A DNA stretch of 64,000 nt from Carnobacterium jeotgali MS3. GTDB lineage: Bacteria > Bacillota > Bacilli > Lactobacillales > Carnobacteriaceae. The translations under genes were made by a program, and so were the position numbers. The notes under the pieces were generated by a model. It was not told the DNA's origin and searched no databases. It worked only from the letters and a program-made list of their open reading frames with translations. Positions 3,338-16,474 of this stretch are shown piece after piece (position 1 is the first letter of the stretch; each line of letters starts with the position of its first letter). The stretch spans positions 372,001 to 436,000 of the forward strand of contig NZ_JQNF01000010.1 in assembly GCF_000745125.1 (NCBI RefSeq), written 5' to 3'.

Positions 3338-4036
3338 TCAAACCAATAATAACCCATCTAAATCAAGTACTCTAATTCGTTTATGAGTAATTTGTTTGAT
3401 GTACCCTTTCTCCTCTAGGTCATTGAACTTACGACTGATGGTTTCAGGAGTCGTTCCCAAATAAGAAGCCAAATCTTTTTTGCTCATAGGTAAAGTAAAT
3501 TCGGCTGCTCCTAGTTCTTCATCATTGAGACTTTCTGCTAAATATAAAGCAATACGAGTTTCAACTTTTTCTGTTGAAAAACGTGTCGTTTGCTTTTCAG
3601 ATGCTTCAAGGCGACTTGAAAATTCAGCAATCACTTTTAGAGCAATCGAAGGGTATTTCAGCAAGAATTCTTGCAAATCAGAGCGCTTAATCATACAAAT
3701 TTTTGTGTCCACAATAGCTTCAGCATACGATTCATGTGTAGATTCTGAAAATAAAGCCATTTCACCAGTGAATTCGCCAGGATTTAACATACGAACTAAT
3801 TGTTCTTTCCCAGAATCTGATAATCTGTAGATTCGAACTCTTCCTTTATTAATAATATAAAGAGAATCCGATTCATCTCCAGCATGATAAATAAGTTCAT
3901 TTTTTTTATACGTTACAGATCGCGTTGTTTTCATAATTTCATCTAACTGCTCATCTTCTAAGTGATTAAAGATGGGAACCAAAGATACGCATGCTTTATG
4001 CGAATTACTCGAATGGTCATGGTGTGTATGATTCAT
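3338..4036 (-). CDS. Crp/Fnr-family regulator with a His-rich N-terminus
   Basis: A 232-residue transcription factor. The N-terminus carries six histidines in the first 15 residues (MNHTHHDHSSNSHKAC) followed by a cysteine. A cyclic-nucleotide-type beta-barrel spans about 25-140, and a winged helix-turn-helix near 160-225 contains KKDLASYLGTTPETISRKF. The ATG at 4036 is preferred: GGAGGA at 4044-4049 is 7 bases upstream, while the in-frame ATG at 4042 and GTG at 4051 lie too close to or inside it. The His/Cys tail could bind metal or an Fe-S cluster; this is an inference. It precedes dps and the metal ATPase on the same strand, and Fnr-type boxes lie upstream of two nearby metal-binding genes, so it is the likely regulator of this block. 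Confidence 0.88.
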   Translation of the reverse strand: MNHTHHDHSSNSHKACVSLVPIFNHLEDEQLDEIMKTTRSVTYKKNELIYHAGDESDSLYIINKGRVRIYRLSDSGKEQLVRMLNPGEFTGEMALFSESTHESYAEAIVDTKICMIKRSDLQEFLLKYPSIALKVIAEFSSRLEASEKQTTRFSTEKVETRIALYLAESLNDEELGAAEFTLPMSKKDLASYLGTTPETISRKFNDLEEKGYIKQITHKRIRVLDLDGLLLV

Positions 4037-4154
4037 ATTCATTTCCTCCACATAAGTTACTTTTTTGACAGTATCATTAACCTTAGTATACCAATTTCAG
4101 CTGGATTCTTCGAGTTAAGTTAAACATTCTTTCTTATTTGCTTAGATTTCATCA

Positions 4155-4201
4155 AAGTCAGCCTACTGCAGAAATGAATTTTTTCTGTAGTAGGCTGACT
4201 T
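4155..4201. terminator. Strong hairpin between dps and the Crp/Fnr gene
   Basis: A 20-bp stem with one wobble pair (4155-4174 with 4182-4201) lies just after dps. The trailing T-runs are short in both directions, so efficiency as an intrinsic terminator is uncertain, but the position fits the end of dps. Confidence 0.65.
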
Positions 4202-4221
4202 TGACTATTTATTTAATGGGT

Positions 4222-4764
4222 TTACTCATCTTCTCCTTCAAGAGCTGATTGGCTAAGAAACGCTTGTAACAGCCAAATTGTTTTGTCTAAATAGTTCTTG
4301 TAACCAATCATGGTATCTTCTAATACAAAGTCTTCTTCTTTCTGTGCTAGTCGGATCGTTCTTAGTGTCAAATCTCTTGTGAGACGGTAATCATCTACTA
4401 GATTTCCAACCATTTCTTCAGCTGACAAATATTTATCTTTTGATGATTCAGAGATCAACCCATACTTCGCATACTCTTCAGTAGTAGATGCTGGTTTGGC
4501 ACCTGAAGCAATTAAGCGCTCTGCAATGTCATCGTAATACTTAGCATTTTCCTCATATAAATTTTCAAATTTTTCATGCAATGAAAAGAAATTTGGTCCT
4601 TTTACATACCAATGATACTGGTGCAGTTTCACATGTAAGATTGCTTGGTTAGAGATAATATGGTTCGTCATAGCCGCTGCAGTTGGATTGTGATGATCAT
4701 GCTCTTTTTCCTCTTGTACGGTCTCAGCTTGATATAATTCTTCATTGGTGTGTGCTTCAGTCAT
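4222..4764 (-). CDS. dps: Dps family ferritin-like iron storage and DNA protection protein
   Basis: A 180-residue Dps protein. These proteins form 12-subunit shells that oxidise Fe(II), store iron and protect DNA from peroxide. The intersubunit ferroxidase ligands are all visible with the spacing known from Listeria Dps: His51, His63, Glu67, Asp78 and Glu82. The tail before residue 30 is acidic and His-containing (EKEHDHH) and longer than in short Dps proteins. The ATG at 4764 follows CTAGGAGGA. It lies between the Crp/Fnr regulator and the P1B ATPase, all on the minus strand, which ties iron handling to the metal export genes. I saw no clear Fnr or PerR box directly upstream. Confidence 0.95.
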   Translation of the reverse strand: MTEAHTNEELYQAETVQEEKEHDHHNPTAAAMTNHIISNQAILHVKLHQYHWYVKGPNFFSLHEKFENLYEENAKYYDDIAERLIASGAKPASTTEEYAKYGLISESSKDKYLSAEEMVGNLVDDYRLTRDLTLRTIRLAQKEEDFVLEDTMIGYKNYLDKTIWLLQAFLSQSALEGEDE

Positions 4765-4923: not shown

Positions 4924-6831
4924 TTACGCTTCGACAGGTACTACAACTCCTTCTACGTTTGCTTGCATATTTTTACGGTTGAAATGAATCAAACGCATCG
5001 CATTTAAAATAACGATTAGTACACTGGCTTCATGTATGAACATTCCAGATGCCAAATGAACACTTCCCATTAAGACCCCAGTTAATAAAATAGCTACTAC
5101 AGCTACCGCAATGAAAATATTTTGTTTCATATTTCTAGTTGTTGCTTTAGATAATGAGTAAGCATGTGAGAACTGCATCAACTTATCAGCCATTAAGACA
5201 ACATCTGCTGTTTCCATCGATACATCAGTTCCGCCTTCACCCATTGCTAAACCAATATCAGCCGTTGCAATCGCTGGAGCATCGTTGATTCCGTCTCCCG
5301 CCATAGCAACAATGTGTCCTGATTCTTTCAATTTCTTTACATATTCTACTTTGTTTTCTGGTAATAATTCAGCATGGAACTCATCTAATCCTAGTTCCAT
5401 TGCAACAGCTTCTGCAGTATGTTTGTTATCTCCAGTCAACATGACGATTTTCTTAATTCCATTTGCTCTCATTTGTGCCAAAGCTTTCTTAGCATCATCA
5501 CGAATCTGATCGGCAATAGAGATAATACCAGCAATATTTCCGTCAATTGCGATAAAGATAGCAGAGTTACCTGCTTTTTCACGGCTCACGGCATAGCTTT
5601 CAACAGCCGTTGACAATGTGATGTTTTCAGTTGTCATTAATTTTCGATTACCAGCAATAATTTTACGCTTGTTCACTACAGCTTTGATCCCGTTGCCTTT
5701 GATTGCTTCTCCATCAGTTAGTTCCATAGAAGCAAGGTCCATGCCACGGTTTCTGGCTGTTTTTACAATTGTTTGTCCCAAATGGTGTTCAGAAATGGTT
5801 TCTGCTTTAGCCACTAGTTCCAATAACGTATCCTTATCGACTTTGTTAAACGTGTGAATGTCTGTCACTTCAGGTTTTCCTTTTGTTAAGGTACCTGTTT
5901 TATCAAAAACCAAGGTATCAACTTTGGAAAACTTATCCATAATTTCTCCACCTTTAATCAACACCCCATTCTTTGCGCCATTTCCGATACCGGCAACATT
6001 TGAAACGGGAGCTCCGATAACTAAAGCACCAGGACATGCGATAACTAAGAACGTAATGGCCAAATGGAGATCTCTAGTAAAGAGGTACACGATAATCGAT
6101 AAGACAACTACAGTTGGTGTGTAGATATTGGCGAATTTATCTAAGAATTTTTCGGCTTTAGATTTTGATTCTTGTGCTTCTTCAACTAGCTCAATAATTT
6201 TCGCAAATGTCGTATCATCACCAACTCTTTCAGCGATGATTTCAATGTACCCATTGTCTACTATAGTTCCACTAAAAACTTTAGCGTCGATTGTCTTTGA
6301 AGCTGGAACAGATTCCCCAGTAATCGCCGCTTCATTAATAGAAGCTTTTCCGGAGACAATTTTACCATCAACAGGAACTTTTCCACCTGGATGAATCACG
6401 ACACGGTCTCCTTCTTCAACCTCTTCGACGGGAATTGTCTCTGTGTTTCCATCTGCCCGTAATATTGTCGCTTCTTGTGGAGCCATATCAACCAATTCTC
6501 TTAAAGAAGAACGGGTTTTTTCTAACGTTCTCATTTCTAAATAATCTCCAAATAAGAACAAGAAGGTTACCACAGAAGATTCGGTGTACTCGCCAATGTA
6601 CAATGCCCCTAGAACAGCAATACTGACCAATAAATCAATGCTGAAAGCTTTCATACGCAACGCTTGAATGGCTTTGATAAAAATAGGTACACTGGCAATA
6701 AGAGTTGCAATAATTAAAGCGATGTCTTTTAAATTTTCAGTTCCCAAGAAGCCAGAAATAAATCCAATAGCGATTAAGACTCCTGATAAAATAGTGATAT
6801 GATTTTTATGATGATTAATATGTGCAATCAT
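4924..6831 (-). CDS. P1B-type heavy-metal translocating ATPase with CPG motif
   Basis: A 635-residue membrane pump that uses ATP to expel a transition metal. Visible signatures are the actuator TGES at 171-174, phosphorylation site DKTGT at 310-314, and AGDGINDAP in the P-domain. Two normally invariant sites differ. The transmembrane metal motif is CPG (266-268) instead of CPC, and the nucleotide-binding HP motif reads SEHHLG. The last membrane pair has HEASVLIVILN, a pattern nearer P1B-4 pumps (Fe, Co or Zn) than Cu pumps. There is no N-terminal CxxC domain, only a short His-rich start; the CxxC domain is encoded separately just upstream at 6851. Start ATG at 6831 after GGAGGA. The exported metal cannot be named with certainty; Cd/Zn or Fe are the main candidates. 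Confidence 0.9.
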   Translation of the reverse strand: MIAHINHHKNHITILSGVLIAIGFISGFLGTENLKDIALIIATLIASVPIFIKAIQALRMKAFSIDLLVSIAVLGALYIGEYTESSVVTFLFLFGDYLEMRTLEKTRSSLRELVDMAPQEATILRADGNTETIPVEEVEEGDRVVIHPGGKVPVDGKIVSGKASINEAAITGESVPASKTIDAKVFSGTIVDNGYIEIIAERVGDDTTFAKIIELVEEAQESKSKAEKFLDKFANIYTPTVVVLSIIVYLFTRDLHLAITFLVIACPGALVIGAPVSNVAGIGNGAKNGVLIKGGEIMDKFSKVDTLVFDKTGTLTKGKPEVTDIHTFNKVDKDTLLELVAKAETISEHHLGQTIVKTARNRGMDLASMELTDGEAIKGNGIKAVVNKRKIIAGNRKLMTTENITLSTAVESYAVSREKAGNSAIFIAIDGNIAGIISIADQIRDDAKKALAQMRANGIKKIVMLTGDNKHTAEAVAMELGLDEFHAELLPENKVEYVKKLKESGHIVAMAGDGINDAPAIATADIGLAMGEGGTDVSMETADVVLMADKLMQFSHAYSLSKATTRNMKQNIFIAVAVVAILLTGVLMGSVHLASGMFIHEASVLIVILNAMRLIHFNRKNMQANVEGVVVPVEA

Positions 6832-6850: not shown

Positions 6851-7072
6851 TTATGTGCTTACTTTTGAATGAATGGAATGTCCGGTTAACAGAATGGCTT
6901 TTTCAATTTGATGGATCGTAACTTTTTGGTTGTCAAATGTCGTGCGAATCTTTCCAAGTTGAGGAAAAACTCTGACCGATTCGATACCGTCTAATTCTTT
7001 GACCTGATTTTCTATTTTTTTTGCACATCCAACACAGTCAAGCGGTTCGATTTTAAATAAGGCTTTAGCCAT
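6851..7072 (-). CDS. Free-standing heavy-metal-associated (HMA) domain protein, first copy
   Basis: A 73-residue protein with the ferredoxin-like HMA fold, CVGC at residues 13-16 binding one metal ion. It starts 19 bases upstream of the P1B ATPase on the same strand, so the two are probably one operon. It is likely the metal chaperone or detached N-terminal domain of that pump. The ATG at 7072 follows GAAAGGAG. The promoter region contains an Fnr-type box (7141-7154) 41.5 bp upstream of the predicted transcription start, with a TAAGAT -10 element. It is clearly related to the second HMA protein at 8144-8365, sharing length, an EPL lead-in to the CxxC motif, KKIE after it and GIES in the following loop. 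Confidence 0.9.
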   Translation of the reverse strand: MAKALFKIEPLDCVGCAKKIENQVKELDGIESVRVFPQLGKIRTTFDNQKVTIHQIEKAILLTGHSIHSKVST

Positions 7073-7112
7073 TGATCTTTCTCCTTTCTTTTTGCTCTCT
7101 CTTTATAGTCTT

Positions 7113-7118
7113 ATCTTA
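7113..7118 (-). promoter_or_regulatory. Predicted -10 element of the HMA1-ATPase operon
   Basis: TAAGAT on the minus strand matches the -10 consensus at five of six bases after a one-base shift in the centre. No -35 hexamer is visible at the normal spacing; the Fnr-type box occupies that area, as expected for an activator-dependent promoter. The implied start is near 7106. Confidence 0.5.
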
Positions 7119-7140
7119 CTTCTTAATACGCAGTTAAAAA

Positions 7141-7154
7141 TTGACCACAGTCAA
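7141..7154. promoter_or_regulatory. Fnr/FLP-type binding site
   Basis: TTGACCACAGTCAA is a perfect TTGAC-N4-GTCAA dyad of the Crp/Fnr family type. Its centre (7147.5) is 41.5 bp upstream of the transcription start implied by the -10 at 7113-7118, the classical class II activator position. The adjacent Crp/Fnr gene is the obvious candidate regulator. Confidence 0.7.
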
Positions 7155-7156
7155 TA

Positions 7157-7195
7157 AAAAAAAGATTTCAGCACATTTTGCTGAAATCTTTTTTT
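7157..7195. terminator. Bidirectional terminator after lgt
   Basis: A 17-bp stem, AAAAAAAGATTTCAGCA paired with its complement ending in T7, around a CATTT loop. It ends the leftward lgt transcript just before the promoter of the first HMA gene. Confidence 0.9.
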
Positions 7196-7196
7196 G

Positions 7197-8045
7197 TTAT
7201 ACTAATGACCTTAGTTTCGTTGTCTCTCTACCCTTGGAATAGTACGGAATAGGCGGATAATCTTGCCTGCGGAGATACCATATGAGAATAGCTCCGATGA
7301 ATAACACTAAAGATAAGGCTTGCGATACGCGCATCAAATCCCCTATCCACAAGCTATCTGTTCTCATCCCTTCAATGAAGAATCTCCCTACTGAGTACCA
7401 AAGTACGTAACTTAACGCTACTTCTCCTTGACGCAACATGTTCTTCCGATTCCTTAATAGGATAATCAGTCCAAATCCCACTACGCTCCACAGTGATTCA
7501 TATAGAAACGTTGGATGGTAATAGGTACCCTTAATGTTCATTTGCTCAATAATAAATTTTGGTAAATATAATTTTTCAAGAAATGCATAACTAACAGGTC
7601 CTCCATGAGCTTCTTGGTTAATAAAGTTTCCCCAGCGTCCGATAGCTTGAGCCAACAATACATTAGGTGCCAAGATATCTAATAACAATGATAAAGAAAC
7701 GCCTTTCTTATTTGTATACCAGTATAGTGTAAGTCCTCCTGCAATCAACCCTCCGTAAATAGCAATTCCACCATTCCAAATAGCTACAATTTCTCCTGGG
7801 TTCTGGAGATAATAATCTAATTCGAATAAAACGTAATAGAGACGTGCACCTATAAAACCAATCGGAATAGCCCATAAAGCCATATCAATGATGATATCCT
7901 CTTCAAGACCTTTTTTCTTTGCTTCTCTGGTGCTTAAATGAATAGCTAAAACTATTGCTGCAGCAATGATGACACCATACCAATGGATCACGAAAGAGCC
8001 TATCTCAATAGCATGGGGGTTGATTGATCCTAATCCTACTTCCAT
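7197..8045 (-). CDS. lgt: Prolipoprotein diacylglyceryl transferase (Lgt)
   Basis: A 282-residue multi-pass membrane enzyme that transfers diacylglycerol from phosphatidylglycerol to the lipobox cysteine of prelipoproteins. The family signature GRWGNFINQEAHGGP is at 136-150, containing the conserved Arg and Asn, and the N-terminus has the usual HWYG. Length is normal for Lgt. The ATG at 8045 is poorly supported by a ribosome site; only GTGAAATGGAG is seen upstream. It lies between two HMA-domain genes in a metal-resistance setting and not beside hprK, its usual neighbour in Firmicutes. It may therefore be a second, metal-linked copy; mobile copper and cadmium clusters in related bacteria sometimes carry an extra lgt. 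The window cannot show whether another lgt exists. Confidence 0.93.
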   Translation of the reverse strand: MEVGLGSINPHAIEIGSFVIHWYGVIIAAAIVLAIHLSTREAKKKGLEEDIIIDMALWAIPIGFIGARLYYVLFELDYYLQNPGEIVAIWNGGIAIYGGLIAGGLTLYWYTNKKGVSLSLLLDILAPNVLLAQAIGRWGNFINQEAHGGPVSYAFLEKLYLPKFIIEQMNIKGTYYHPTFLYESLWSVVGFGLIILLRNRKNMLRQGEVALSYVLWYSVGRFFIEGMRTDSLWIGDLMRVSQALSLVLFIGAILIWYLRRQDYPPIPYYSKGRETTKLRSLV

Positions 8046-8075
8046 TTAATCTACTCCATTTCACTTTTCAAAAAA

Positions 8076-8103
8076 AGATTCCCACTATTGAAAGTCGGAA
8101 TCC
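8076..8103. terminator. Imperfect hairpin between HMA2 and lgt
   Basis: GATTCCCAC pairs with GTCGGAATC with one central mismatch, and an A-run lies on the lgt side. It may terminate or attenuate leftward transcripts from the second HMA gene into lgt, so lgt may be only partly co-transcribed. Confidence 0.5.
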
Positions 8104-8143
8104 TTCTTTAGATTATTTTCAACTCATTATCAGACTTCATCTA

Positions 8144-8365
8144 TTAAGATATTTTGGCAGATAGTACGGGATAACCTAATTTTTGAATGGTTTCTTGAAT
8201 TTTACTAGCTTCAATAGCTGTTTCATCGAACTCTGTTTTTACTTTGCTTGAATTAAACATTACCTTGGCTGATTCAATACCTGCCGTTTTATTTAAAGTC
8301 GTTTCGATTTTCTTGATACATGATGGACAAGTTAATGGTTCTAATTGATATACTGCTTTACTCAT
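8144..8365 (-). CDS. Free-standing HMA domain protein, second copy
   Basis: A 73-residue HMA-fold protein with CPSC at residues 13-16. It resembles the first HMA protein closely enough to suggest duplication, but the residues inside the CxxC loop differ (PS versus VG), so the metal or partner may differ. ATG at 8365 follows ATAGGAGGA. Its promoter has a good TATACT -10 (8397-8402) and an Fnr-type box centred exactly 41.5 bp upstream of the implied start, as for the first copy. It likely hands metal to the P1B ATPase or buffers it; which metal is unknown. Confidence 0.88.
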   Translation of the reverse strand: MSKAVYQLEPLTCPSCIKKIETTLNKTAGIESAKVMFNSSKVKTEFDETAIEASKIQETIQKLGYPVLSAKIS

Positions 8366-8396
8366 AATGATCTTCCTCCTATCTTTTATTATCTTT

Positions 8397-8402
8397 AGTA
8401 TA
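8397..8402 (-). promoter_or_regulatory. Predicted -10 element of the second HMA gene
   Basis: TATACT on the minus strand matches five of six consensus bases. No -35 hexamer is visible; the Fnr-type box covers that region. The implied transcription start is near 8390, 25 bases upstream of the start codon. Confidence 0.6.
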
Positions 8403-8424
8403 AGCAGTCCTACTCCTTAAAAAA

Positions 8425-8438
8425 TTGACCTTCATCAA
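8425..8438. promoter_or_regulatory. Fnr/FLP-type binding site
   Basis: TTGACCTTCATCAA fits the TTGA-N6-TCAA dyad of Crp/Fnr proteins. On the minus strand it shares 10 of 14 bases, including the GGTCAA end, with the box at 7141-7154. Its centre lies 41.5 bp upstream of the start implied by the TATACT element. Confidence 0.7.
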
Positions 8439-8458
8439 TTTCCGATAAAAAGCTCAAC

Positions 8459-14332: not shown

Positions 14333-16474
14333 TTATTTATCCGTTTTTTTATAGGGCTTAAACATTACCTTATGCTCCTCATTCACTATAAGAGCAGCTG
14401 AAAAAGTCTCGCCTGTTTTTTTCTTGAATCCTTTTAACAACGATGTTTCTTTTGTCTTTAATAGTTTTTTTATTGTTGCTTCAGATAATGTTTTTCCTAC
14501 ATATCTTTTTGGCAATGTGAAGGTACAGCCGTTACTGTATCCACTACAACCATAAAATTTCCCTTTATCTATTATCGACTGGCCGCATGCAGGACAAGTT
14601 CCAATTGTCTGCTTTGTTTGACTAATCGTTTGATTCATACTCGTTATACGAGTAGACCAGTCACTGCTTTCAATTACTTGAGCGCTTGAAGCCAATGTAT
14701 GGTCGATAAATTTTTGAATATTTTCCAAAAATGCTTCTTGAGTGCCTTCTTCTTTCTTTATTTTCTTTAAATAAGTTTCCCATTTGGCTGTCATTTCAGG
14801 ACTGCTTAATAAGGTGTTTTTTACTGCTTGACACAGTATCGCTCCTTTTTGGGTAACCGTCACATCGTTTTTTTGAATCTCAATATAGTGTTGTTTTTTA
14901 AGTGTCTCAAGAACATTCGCTCTGGTCGCTTCTGTTCCAATCCCTTCAGTGGCTTTTAGGATTTCTTTTTCTTCCACATTTTCCAGTTCTTTACCACAAG
15001 TCTTCATAGCAGTGATTAAGGTACCTTCTGTGTAAGATTTTGGTGGTGCTGTAAACCCTTCTGAAGTAGCTAAATCTGCTTCAATTGCTTCATTTTTTTG
15101 TACTAAAGGCAATTCTGTATTTTCTTCTTTATCTGTTTTCTTACTAGCAGCATACTCCAACTTGCGCCAGCCTTTATCCAGAATCGTTCTTCCTTTACTT
15201 ATAAAAGGGAGCTTTTTAATTTCTACCGTGATGGTGGTTTCATCATATTTATAGTCTGTTTCAAACATCGCCATTGTCCGCTTCAAAACAGTATAATAAA
15301 TTTCTTTTTGAATGGATGTCAACTTGTCTAACTCTTTTTGCGTGGGTACTTTTTTAGTCGGAATAATAGCGTAATGCTCTTGAACTTTTGAACCATCTAC
15401 ATACCGTTTTCGTTTACTTGTATTCGGCTGTTCTATGGTATAATTCAATACACTTTGATAACCGTCAATTCTTTCTATCAAGTAATGAAACTCTGAATCA
15501 GTAATATGCCGGCAGTCGCTTCGTGGGTAACTGAGCAATTTAGCTTCATAAAGCGATTGGACATGTTTCAATGTATCTGATGGGCTCACTTTATATTTTT
15601 TATTTATCAAACTTTGCAAGTCACTTAAGGAAAACAAAAACGGTGAAGGCTGTGAAATGCGTTTCGTTCCGATATCAGAAATCACTCCAGGATTGCTAGC
15701 TAGTAATTCATGTTTTTTGATTAGATCTTGTAATTCTTTTTTTGTTGGAAATTTTTTGTTATATTTGGCTTTAAATGACCCTTTTTCAGCTTTTATTGTA
15801 GCGTGCATTTCAAAAAAAGGTTCCGGGATAAAATTTTCAATCTCTTTTTGACGAGTATAAATCATATAAAGGGTTGGTGTTTGAACACGCCCCACGCTAA
15901 ATACCCCTTCATTAATGCCTTTTTTTTGCAGCGAAAGAGTGTACATGCGCGATAAATTAATACCCACTAACCAGTCGCTTATTTGTCTTGTTTGAGCTTC
16001 AATGTAAGCAGAATAAAAGTCTTTTCCATCTCTTAAATCAGAAAATCCTTTTTGTATCTCATCCGCTTCAAGTGAGTTGATCCACAGACGTTTAATTTCC
16101 TTGTTATCTGCTTTTGCTTGGCTGATGATTGACCGCGCAATATTTTCCCCTTCGCGATCGCTATCAGTAGCGATCACGATTTGGTCTGCTTCTTTCAACA
16201 GTCTTTTTATGATATTAAACTGTTTGCTTTTGCCTTGCCCAACTTTAAATTTAAACGTTTGCGGAATAATGGGCAGTTCTTTCATATTCCATTTTTTCCA
16301 TTCATCTCTATATTCTTCTGGGGAAGCCAATTCGACTAAATGTCCGAATCCCCAAGTAATGATATCATTGGATGGATTTAAAATAATATACCCATCTTTT
16401 TTTGAAAATTTTCCAAAAGATTCAGCATACGCTTGTGCCTGGGAAGGTTTCTCTGCTAAGATAACCCGCTTCAT
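14333..16474 (-). CDS. topB: DNA topoisomerase III
   Basis: A 713-residue type IA topoisomerase that relaxes and decatenates DNA. The Toprim domain starts MKRVILAEKPSQA, with acidic DSDREGENIA near 104-113. The active-site tyrosine is in LLSYPRSDC near residue 316, and the C-terminus has a four-Cys zinc-ribbon (CPACG and a second pair ending SNGC). ATG at 16474 is preferred, because GGGGAAG lies 8 bases upstream; the GTG at 16483 is too close to it. It stands alone between the ArsR operon and an unknown gene. topB occurs on both chromosomes and mobile elements of lactic acid bacteria; nothing here indicates mobility. Confidence 0.95.
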   Translation of the reverse strand: MKRVILAEKPSQAQAYAESFGKFSKKDGYIILNPSNDIITWGFGHLVELASPEEYRDEWKKWNMKELPIIPQTFKFKVGQGKSKQFNIIKRLLKEADQIVIATDSDREGENIARSIISQAKADNKEIKRLWINSLEADEIQKGFSDLRDGKDFYSAYIEAQTRQISDWLVGINLSRMYTLSLQKKGINEGVFSVGRVQTPTLYMIYTRQKEIENFIPEPFFEMHATIKAEKGSFKAKYNKKFPTKKELQDLIKKHELLASNPGVISDIGTKRISQPSPFLFSLSDLQSLINKKYKVSPSDTLKHVQSLYEAKLLSYPRSDCRHITDSEFHYLIERIDGYQSVLNYTIEQPNTSKRKRYVDGSKVQEHYAIIPTKKVPTQKELDKLTSIQKEIYYTVLKRTMAMFETDYKYDETTITVEIKKLPFISKGRTILDKGWRKLEYAASKKTDKEENTELPLVQKNEAIEADLATSEGFTAPPKSYTEGTLITAMKTCGKELENVEEKEILKATEGIGTEATRANVLETLKKQHYIEIQKNDVTVTQKGAILCQAVKNTLLSSPEMTAKWETYLKKIKKEEGTQEAFLENIQKFIDHTLASSAQVIESSDWSTRITSMNQTISQTKQTIGTCPACGQSIIDKGKFYGCSGYSNGCTFTLPKRYVGKTLSEATIKKLLKTKETSLLKGFKKKTGETFSAALIVNEEHKVMFKPYKKTDK

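Follow-up and report, generated by a model that had tools for sequence, protein, structure and literature searches.

FNR-Like Regulators and the Closest Described Systems

FNR of Escherichia coli and Aliivibrio fischeri has an established target sequence and established class II promoter rules, and both were used here for comparison with the CRP/FNR regulator encoded in the window (the whole stretch of 64,000 nt of DNA that was analyzed). The proteins are alike in fold, in the recognition helix (ETISR), in TTGAT-like half-sites, and in the class II position of the site at -41.5, and in an alignment with A. fischeri FNR, C119 of the regulator falls on the central cysteine of the cluster. They differ in that FNR has an N-terminal Cys triad for a [4Fe-4S] cluster (three N-terminal cysteines and one central), whereas the regulator has no triad, only C21 and C119, and scores far below the cut-off of the FNR family model (91.5 vs. 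228).

Closer to the regulator are Lactobacillus casei FLP and Lactococcus lactis FlpA/FlpB, CRP/FNR proteins with two conserved cysteines rather than four, which it matches by description; FLP and FlpA are named as examples of this type (PMC5039431). FlpS of Streptococcus suis is similarly a two-Cys FNR-like activator, and its deletion altered expression of the Dps-like gene dpr, but FlpS activates the arginine deiminase genes and no metal cluster is described for it (PMC5039431). The FlpA regulon is filed as metal homeostasis in lactic acid bacteria (PMC3616900), and the title of an L. lactis paper connects zinc uptake and oxidative stress with FNR-like proteins. On a Lactococcus plasmid, a P-type ATPase gene is followed by an HMA (heavy-metal-associated domain)-Dps-regulator unit, with both transcripts behind class II boxes. 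A ZosA-like ATPase borne on a Listeria plasmid (PMC6985202) resembles the ATPase of the present cluster in being a P-type metal ATPase of ∼630 aa, and a Listeria plasmid in our comparison set carries the boxed cluster, which does not imply identity with that gene. The two differ in that a NiCo riboswitch has been proposed for the ZosA-like gene (PMC6985202), whereas Rfam gave no match for the window or for any of eight related loci, and riboswitch control of the cluster was rejected on this ground.

The proposed control of the cluster extends known FLP/FlpA regulation and is not of a new kind; FLP regulators have been described before, as have FNR sites of class II. No paper on the regulation of this cluster was found in the literature covered, which took in neither the FlpA member list nor the original FLP papers. 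Within the FLP/FlpA literature compared, we found no description of a cluster with lgt, of a base-exact promoter rule across Bacillota, of a distant RIC-like member, or of the link to a CPG-type ATPase. For a Gram-positive class of FNR-like proteins with a disputed signal, the cluster would provide an exact promoter signature and a limited set of genes, both searchable in any genome, and it draws attention to the CPG group of metal ATPases.

Organization of the Gene Cluster

The cluster in the window runs in the order HMA2, lgt, HMA1, ATPase, Dps, and regulator (Table 1), while the HMA, ATPase, Dps, and regulator genes of relatives occur in several orders and are often plasmid-borne. No N-terminal HMA domain was found by Pfam in the ATPase of the window, which suggests that the free HMA proteins may act as its detached domains. 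The ATPase gene is assigned to the HMA1 transcript because it lies only 19 bp past HMA1; the Dps gene, with no box in the gap upstream of it in the window, is possibly carried on the same transcript. All cluster ATPases of the comparison (∼70, L031-L208) share the TM4 motif CPG and, close to their C-terminal end, the motif HE-x-S, and the other ATPases of those loci lack CPG, having CPC, CPH, or SPC. The TM4 motifs of the known P1B metal classes (CPC, CPH, SPC, and TPC) occur neither in the ATPase of the window nor in the cluster ATPases of relatives, and from their sequences the CPG enzymes possibly form a distinct P1B group. Regarding the substrate, Dps, the RIC-like protein described below, and the plasmid neighbors FetB or VIT1/CCC1 point to iron or oxidative stress, and the HMA proteins point to a thiophilic metal. 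Between dps and the regulator gene (4150-4206) lies a near-perfect long inverted repeat (AGTCAAAGTCAGCCTACT...) without a T run, present as a single copy in the window.

Table 1. Features of the cluster and its promoters (positions in the window unless another locus is named).
Feature	Position	Strand	Basis or remark
HMA2, 73-aa free-standing heavy-metal-associated domain, CPSC motif	8144..8365	-	Pfam HMA 5.5e-14
HMA2 promoter -10, TATACT	8397..8402	-	begins 22 bp past box; equal gap in 87/91 related promoters
HMA2 promoter box, FNR/FLP-type, TTGATGAAGGTCAA	8425..8438	-	forward-strand letters TTGACCTTCATCAA; centre -41.5
Terminator-like hairpin followed by T run, between HMA2 and lgt	8077..8102	-	
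lgt, accessory prolipoprotein diacylglyceryl transferase	7197..8045	-	TIGR00544 above cut-off; doubtful regulon member, readthrough only
Terminator-like hairpin past lgt, immediately ahead of HMA1-ATPase box	7164..7188	-	
HMA1-ATPase promoter box, FNR/FLP-type, TTGACTGTGGTCAA	7141..7154	-	forward-strand letters TTGACCACAGTCAA; centre -41.5
HMA1-ATPase promoter -10, TAAGAT	7113..7118	-	begins 22 bp past box
HMA1, 73-aa free-standing heavy-metal-associated domain, CVGC motif	6851..7072	-	Pfam HMA 2.3e-9
P1B-type metal ATPase, 635 aa, TM4 CPG	4924..6831	-	TIGR01525 above cut-off
Dps/ferritin-like protein	4222..4764	-	Pfam Ferritin 5.9e-28
Extended -10 TGGTATACT, probably the promoter of the regulator gene itself; no box	4085..4090	-	sequence
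FLP-type CRP/FNR regulator	3338..4051	-	Pfam cNMP_binding and HTH_Crp_2, conservation, fold; true start possibly a Met few codons in
98-aa RIC/ScdA-like protein	L110:1714-2010 (C10, ∼145 kb from cluster)		no Pfam family; class II promoter upstream

The Regulator

Pfam places the regulator in the CRP/FNR superfamily (PF00027, 1.4e-25; PF13545, 2.5e-18), and its fold matches CRP and FNR structures. The recognition helix reads TPETISRK, with E203, T204, S206, and R207 invariant in 74 sequences, and this E-x-x-S-R helix together with TTGAY-N4-RTCAA sites corresponds at the sequence level to FNR-type DNA specificity. C21, which follows a His-rich N-terminus, and C119 are invariant in 74 orthologues and provide the one N-terminal and one central conserved cysteine of the two-Cys FLP type; by these features the regulator is an FLP-type FNR homologue of Gram-positive bacteria. 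The original prediction had given the protein a His-rich, Cys-containing tail, which exists but is N-terminal, and had overlooked the second invariant cysteine, C119. Cys5 and Cys102 of L. casei FLP work as a dithiol-disulfide switch, and their spacing nearly equals that of C21 to C119, which is taken as a lead only. The C21/C119 pair is the likeliest input and would sense either a thiol-binding metal or oxidation, possibly with a contribution from the His-rich N-terminus. Box-driven autoregulation in the window was considered and rejected, as no site with two or fewer mismatches upstream of the regulator gene has a -10 at 22 bp.

Promoter Architecture

The two FNR-type boxes predicted ahead of the HMA genes are both present (Table 1), and each is centered at -41.5 relative to its own -10, as had been claimed, with an identical 22-bp gap at the two promoters and with the start taken to lie 7 nt past the hexamer. 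A TTGACA-like -35 at 15–19 bp from the -10 is likewise absent from both (best match, 3/6). Both promoters therefore combine, in sequence and with an inferred start, the elements of a class II CRP/FNR-dependent promoter (site at -41.5, -10, and no -35). In relatives within the genus, the HMA1-ATPase -10 is TAAGAT or GATAATAT-like at the identical gap to the box, and the HMA2 box of orthologous promoters lies 66.5 ± 1 bp ahead of the HMA start in many species. Both boxes directly follow the terminator-like hairpin of the preceding gene and so sit where a promoter is needed. They had been described as the only such dyads in the block, which holds for intergenic sites in promoter position but not for dyads as such, since others occur at 4979 within the ATPase gene and at 15455 within a topoisomerase gene.

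The dyad itself is common: TTGA-N6-TCAA occurs nine times in the window against 4.2 expected, and a scan of the 2.5-Mb genome, as the original prediction had proposed, returned 125 sites. Its rarity was accordingly rejected as proof, and the weight was shifted to comparative tests. This frequency is what speaks for taking the boxes as chance dyads in AT-rich intergenic DNA with a coincidental -41.5 spacing, a reading which is contradicted by the conserved position, the conserved -10 gap, and the association with the regulator across many genera, and which is extremely improbable.

Conservation in Related Genomes

The comparison comprised 40 regions of related genomes and 80 named loci around regulator orthologues, the loci being mostly from Carnobacteriaceae, Enterococcaceae, Bacillaceae, and Clostridia, and the box-bearing promoters from Lactobacillales, Bacillaceae, and Clostridia. 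Boxes were counted as strict TTGAYN4RTCAA matches from -180 to +25 of a gene, with other genes limited to those of at least 120 aa. In the related loci, a strict box preceded 73/97 HMA genes, 42/73 cluster-type ATPase genes, 7/20 dps genes, and 10/96 orthologous regulator genes, as compared with 23/901 other genes and with none of 44 ABC or 14 ArsR genes. Across 60 related genomes, a regulator homologue (E up to 1e-20) was found in 28 and the promoter pattern in 28; 27 genomes have both, 31 have neither, and two are discordant. G007 has the promoter without the regulator, and its ATPase is fragmented; the site in G057, counted among the 27, lies inside a gene and may be due to chance.

Among 91 non-redundant box-bearing promoters (<75% identity) of HMA, P1B-ATPase, Dps, and regulator genes, 87 have, exactly 22 bp past the box, a hexamer that agrees with TATAAT in at least four positions (runner-up gap, 42), and TANNNT stands at 22 bp in 42/44 promoters under a stricter redundancy cut. 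The same gap is seen separately within the HMA, ATPase, and regulator families and, because the sites were selected without regard to the -10, gives independent support to the -41.5 geometry, the class II arrangement that had been predicted for the window; the shared ancestry of the sequences means that formal p-values overstate their independence. The related promoters share an extended motif of roughly AAAC-TTGAY-N4-RTCAA-KT and are depleted of the -35 relative to shuffles, and the promoter geometry is also preserved where the cluster lies on plasmids of Enterococcus, Listeria, Leuconostoc, and Lactococcus.

Repressors, ArsR and CopY among them, control many Gram-positive metal-export genes, and the regulator could by analogy repress from its boxes until a metal or an oxidant relieves the repression. 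A repressor needs no exact spacing, whereas the -41.5 center, the depleted -35, and the base-exact phasing of the -10 are marks of class II activation, and repression is very unlikely. From the geometry alone, we infer activation rather than repression.

Genome-Wide Sites and a Second FLP Paralogue

The pattern TTGAYN4RTCAA has 55 sites in the genome, which were located by pattern searches and in fetched stretches, only part of them being inspected singly. Six of the sites in the 2.5 Mb have TANNNT at 22 bp, compared with none for a reversed-pattern control, and three of these six are of the cluster kind, namely the two boxes of the window (HMA2 and HMA1-ATPase) and C10:524457-524498. This third site precedes the gene for the 98-aa RIC/ScdA-like protein (Table 1), its -10 reads TATACT, and the promoter is kept in the genus, always 82.5 bp ahead of the start. 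The protein is 35-73% identical to in-cluster proteins of other species, the genes of which lie downstream of a boxed HMA gene or have their own box, and it resembles RIC/ScdA Fe-S repair proteins in their C-terminal part, with an E of 1.9e-9 and a score that falls well short of the family cut-off. In two relatives (G003 and G013; L220 and L221), this class II promoter was also seen at the gene for a secreted protein of 233 aa that contains the motif HCDTEQGP, a possible extra regulon member.

The remaining three sites are all the palindrome TTGATTTAAATCAA (C10:363022, C5:564732, and C10:559765), found between the gene for a second FLP paralogue (C10:363213; 44% identical to the cluster regulator) and an acyl-CoA-dehydrogenase-like gene, upstream of a small oxidase-like gene, and upstream of an FMN-binding gene that adjoins apbE. 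The small oxidase-like gene resembles, by our reading, those of pyridoxamine-phosphate oxidases, with no match in Pfam. The three sites probably belong to the paralogue, and their promoters form a likely second FNR-like regulon with an AT spacer.

The paralogue could also be the protein which mainly binds the cluster boxes, these then being genuine FNR-type sites of another family member. Its recognition helix is related (TSESLSRE in relatives), the genome has class II sites in which the TTGA/TCAA half-sites recur, and possible cross-talk through such sites weighs against assigning the boxes to the local regulator, as does the lack of an own box at the regulator and Dps genes of the window. 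However, the boxes are present in relatives that have the cluster-type regulator only (e.g., G009, G012, G020, G036, and G050), so the paralogue is not needed for their retention. Furthermore, the sites associated with the paralogue are TTGATTTAAATCAA, whereas in 80/91 cluster boxes the spacer contains at least one G or C, and on plasmids it is the cluster-type regulator that is linked to the boxed genes. Binding mainly by the paralogue is thus unlikely.

Proposed Regulation

The two dyads are very probably class II operator sites of the regulator encoded at 3338-4051, which would activate the HMA2, HMA1-ATPase, and RIC-like genes. A dimer of the regulator would bind TTGAY-N4-RTCAA at -41.5, next to RNA polymerase, where a promoter offers a -10 and no -35, and once bound would switch transcription on. 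The first transcript would comprise HMA2 and the second HMA1 with the CPG-type ATPase and possibly Dps, and the distant RIC/ScdA-like gene would also be switched on in this genome, the products together forming a transition-metal and iron stress kit. The sequence comparisons support a class II regulon to which the local CRP/FNR protein is dedicated, and the shared promoter suggests that it extends to Dps in relatives and to the RIC-like protein elsewhere in the genome. More tentatively, this might represent a two-Cys FLP regulon that is mobile and common throughout Bacillota and is dedicated to a distinct class of CPG-type P1B ATPases working with free HMA domains, Dps, and the RIC-like protein, which could together provide redox- or metal-gated protection, with C21/C119 and the His-rich N-terminus reading the signal. 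Plasmids of Enterococcus, Listeria, Leuconostoc, Weissella, and Lactococcus carry the cluster, and its control is therefore relevant to how food and clinical bacteria tolerate metals and oxidants.

The lgt Gene

The original prediction had counted HMA proteins, ATPase, and Lgt as one dedicated regulon. The boxes, their spacing, and the co-occurrence with the regulator bear this out for the HMA genes and the ATPase, but direct membership of Lgt is not supported, since HMA2 and lgt have a terminator-like hairpin between them and none of the 11 lgt genes in the related loci has a strict box; lgt is at best a readthrough passenger. The genome has a second lgt (C7:201630-202448), 73% identical to the cluster copy, which is an accessory paralogue, and lgt genes of the cluster type also adjoin metal genes on Enterococcus plasmids.
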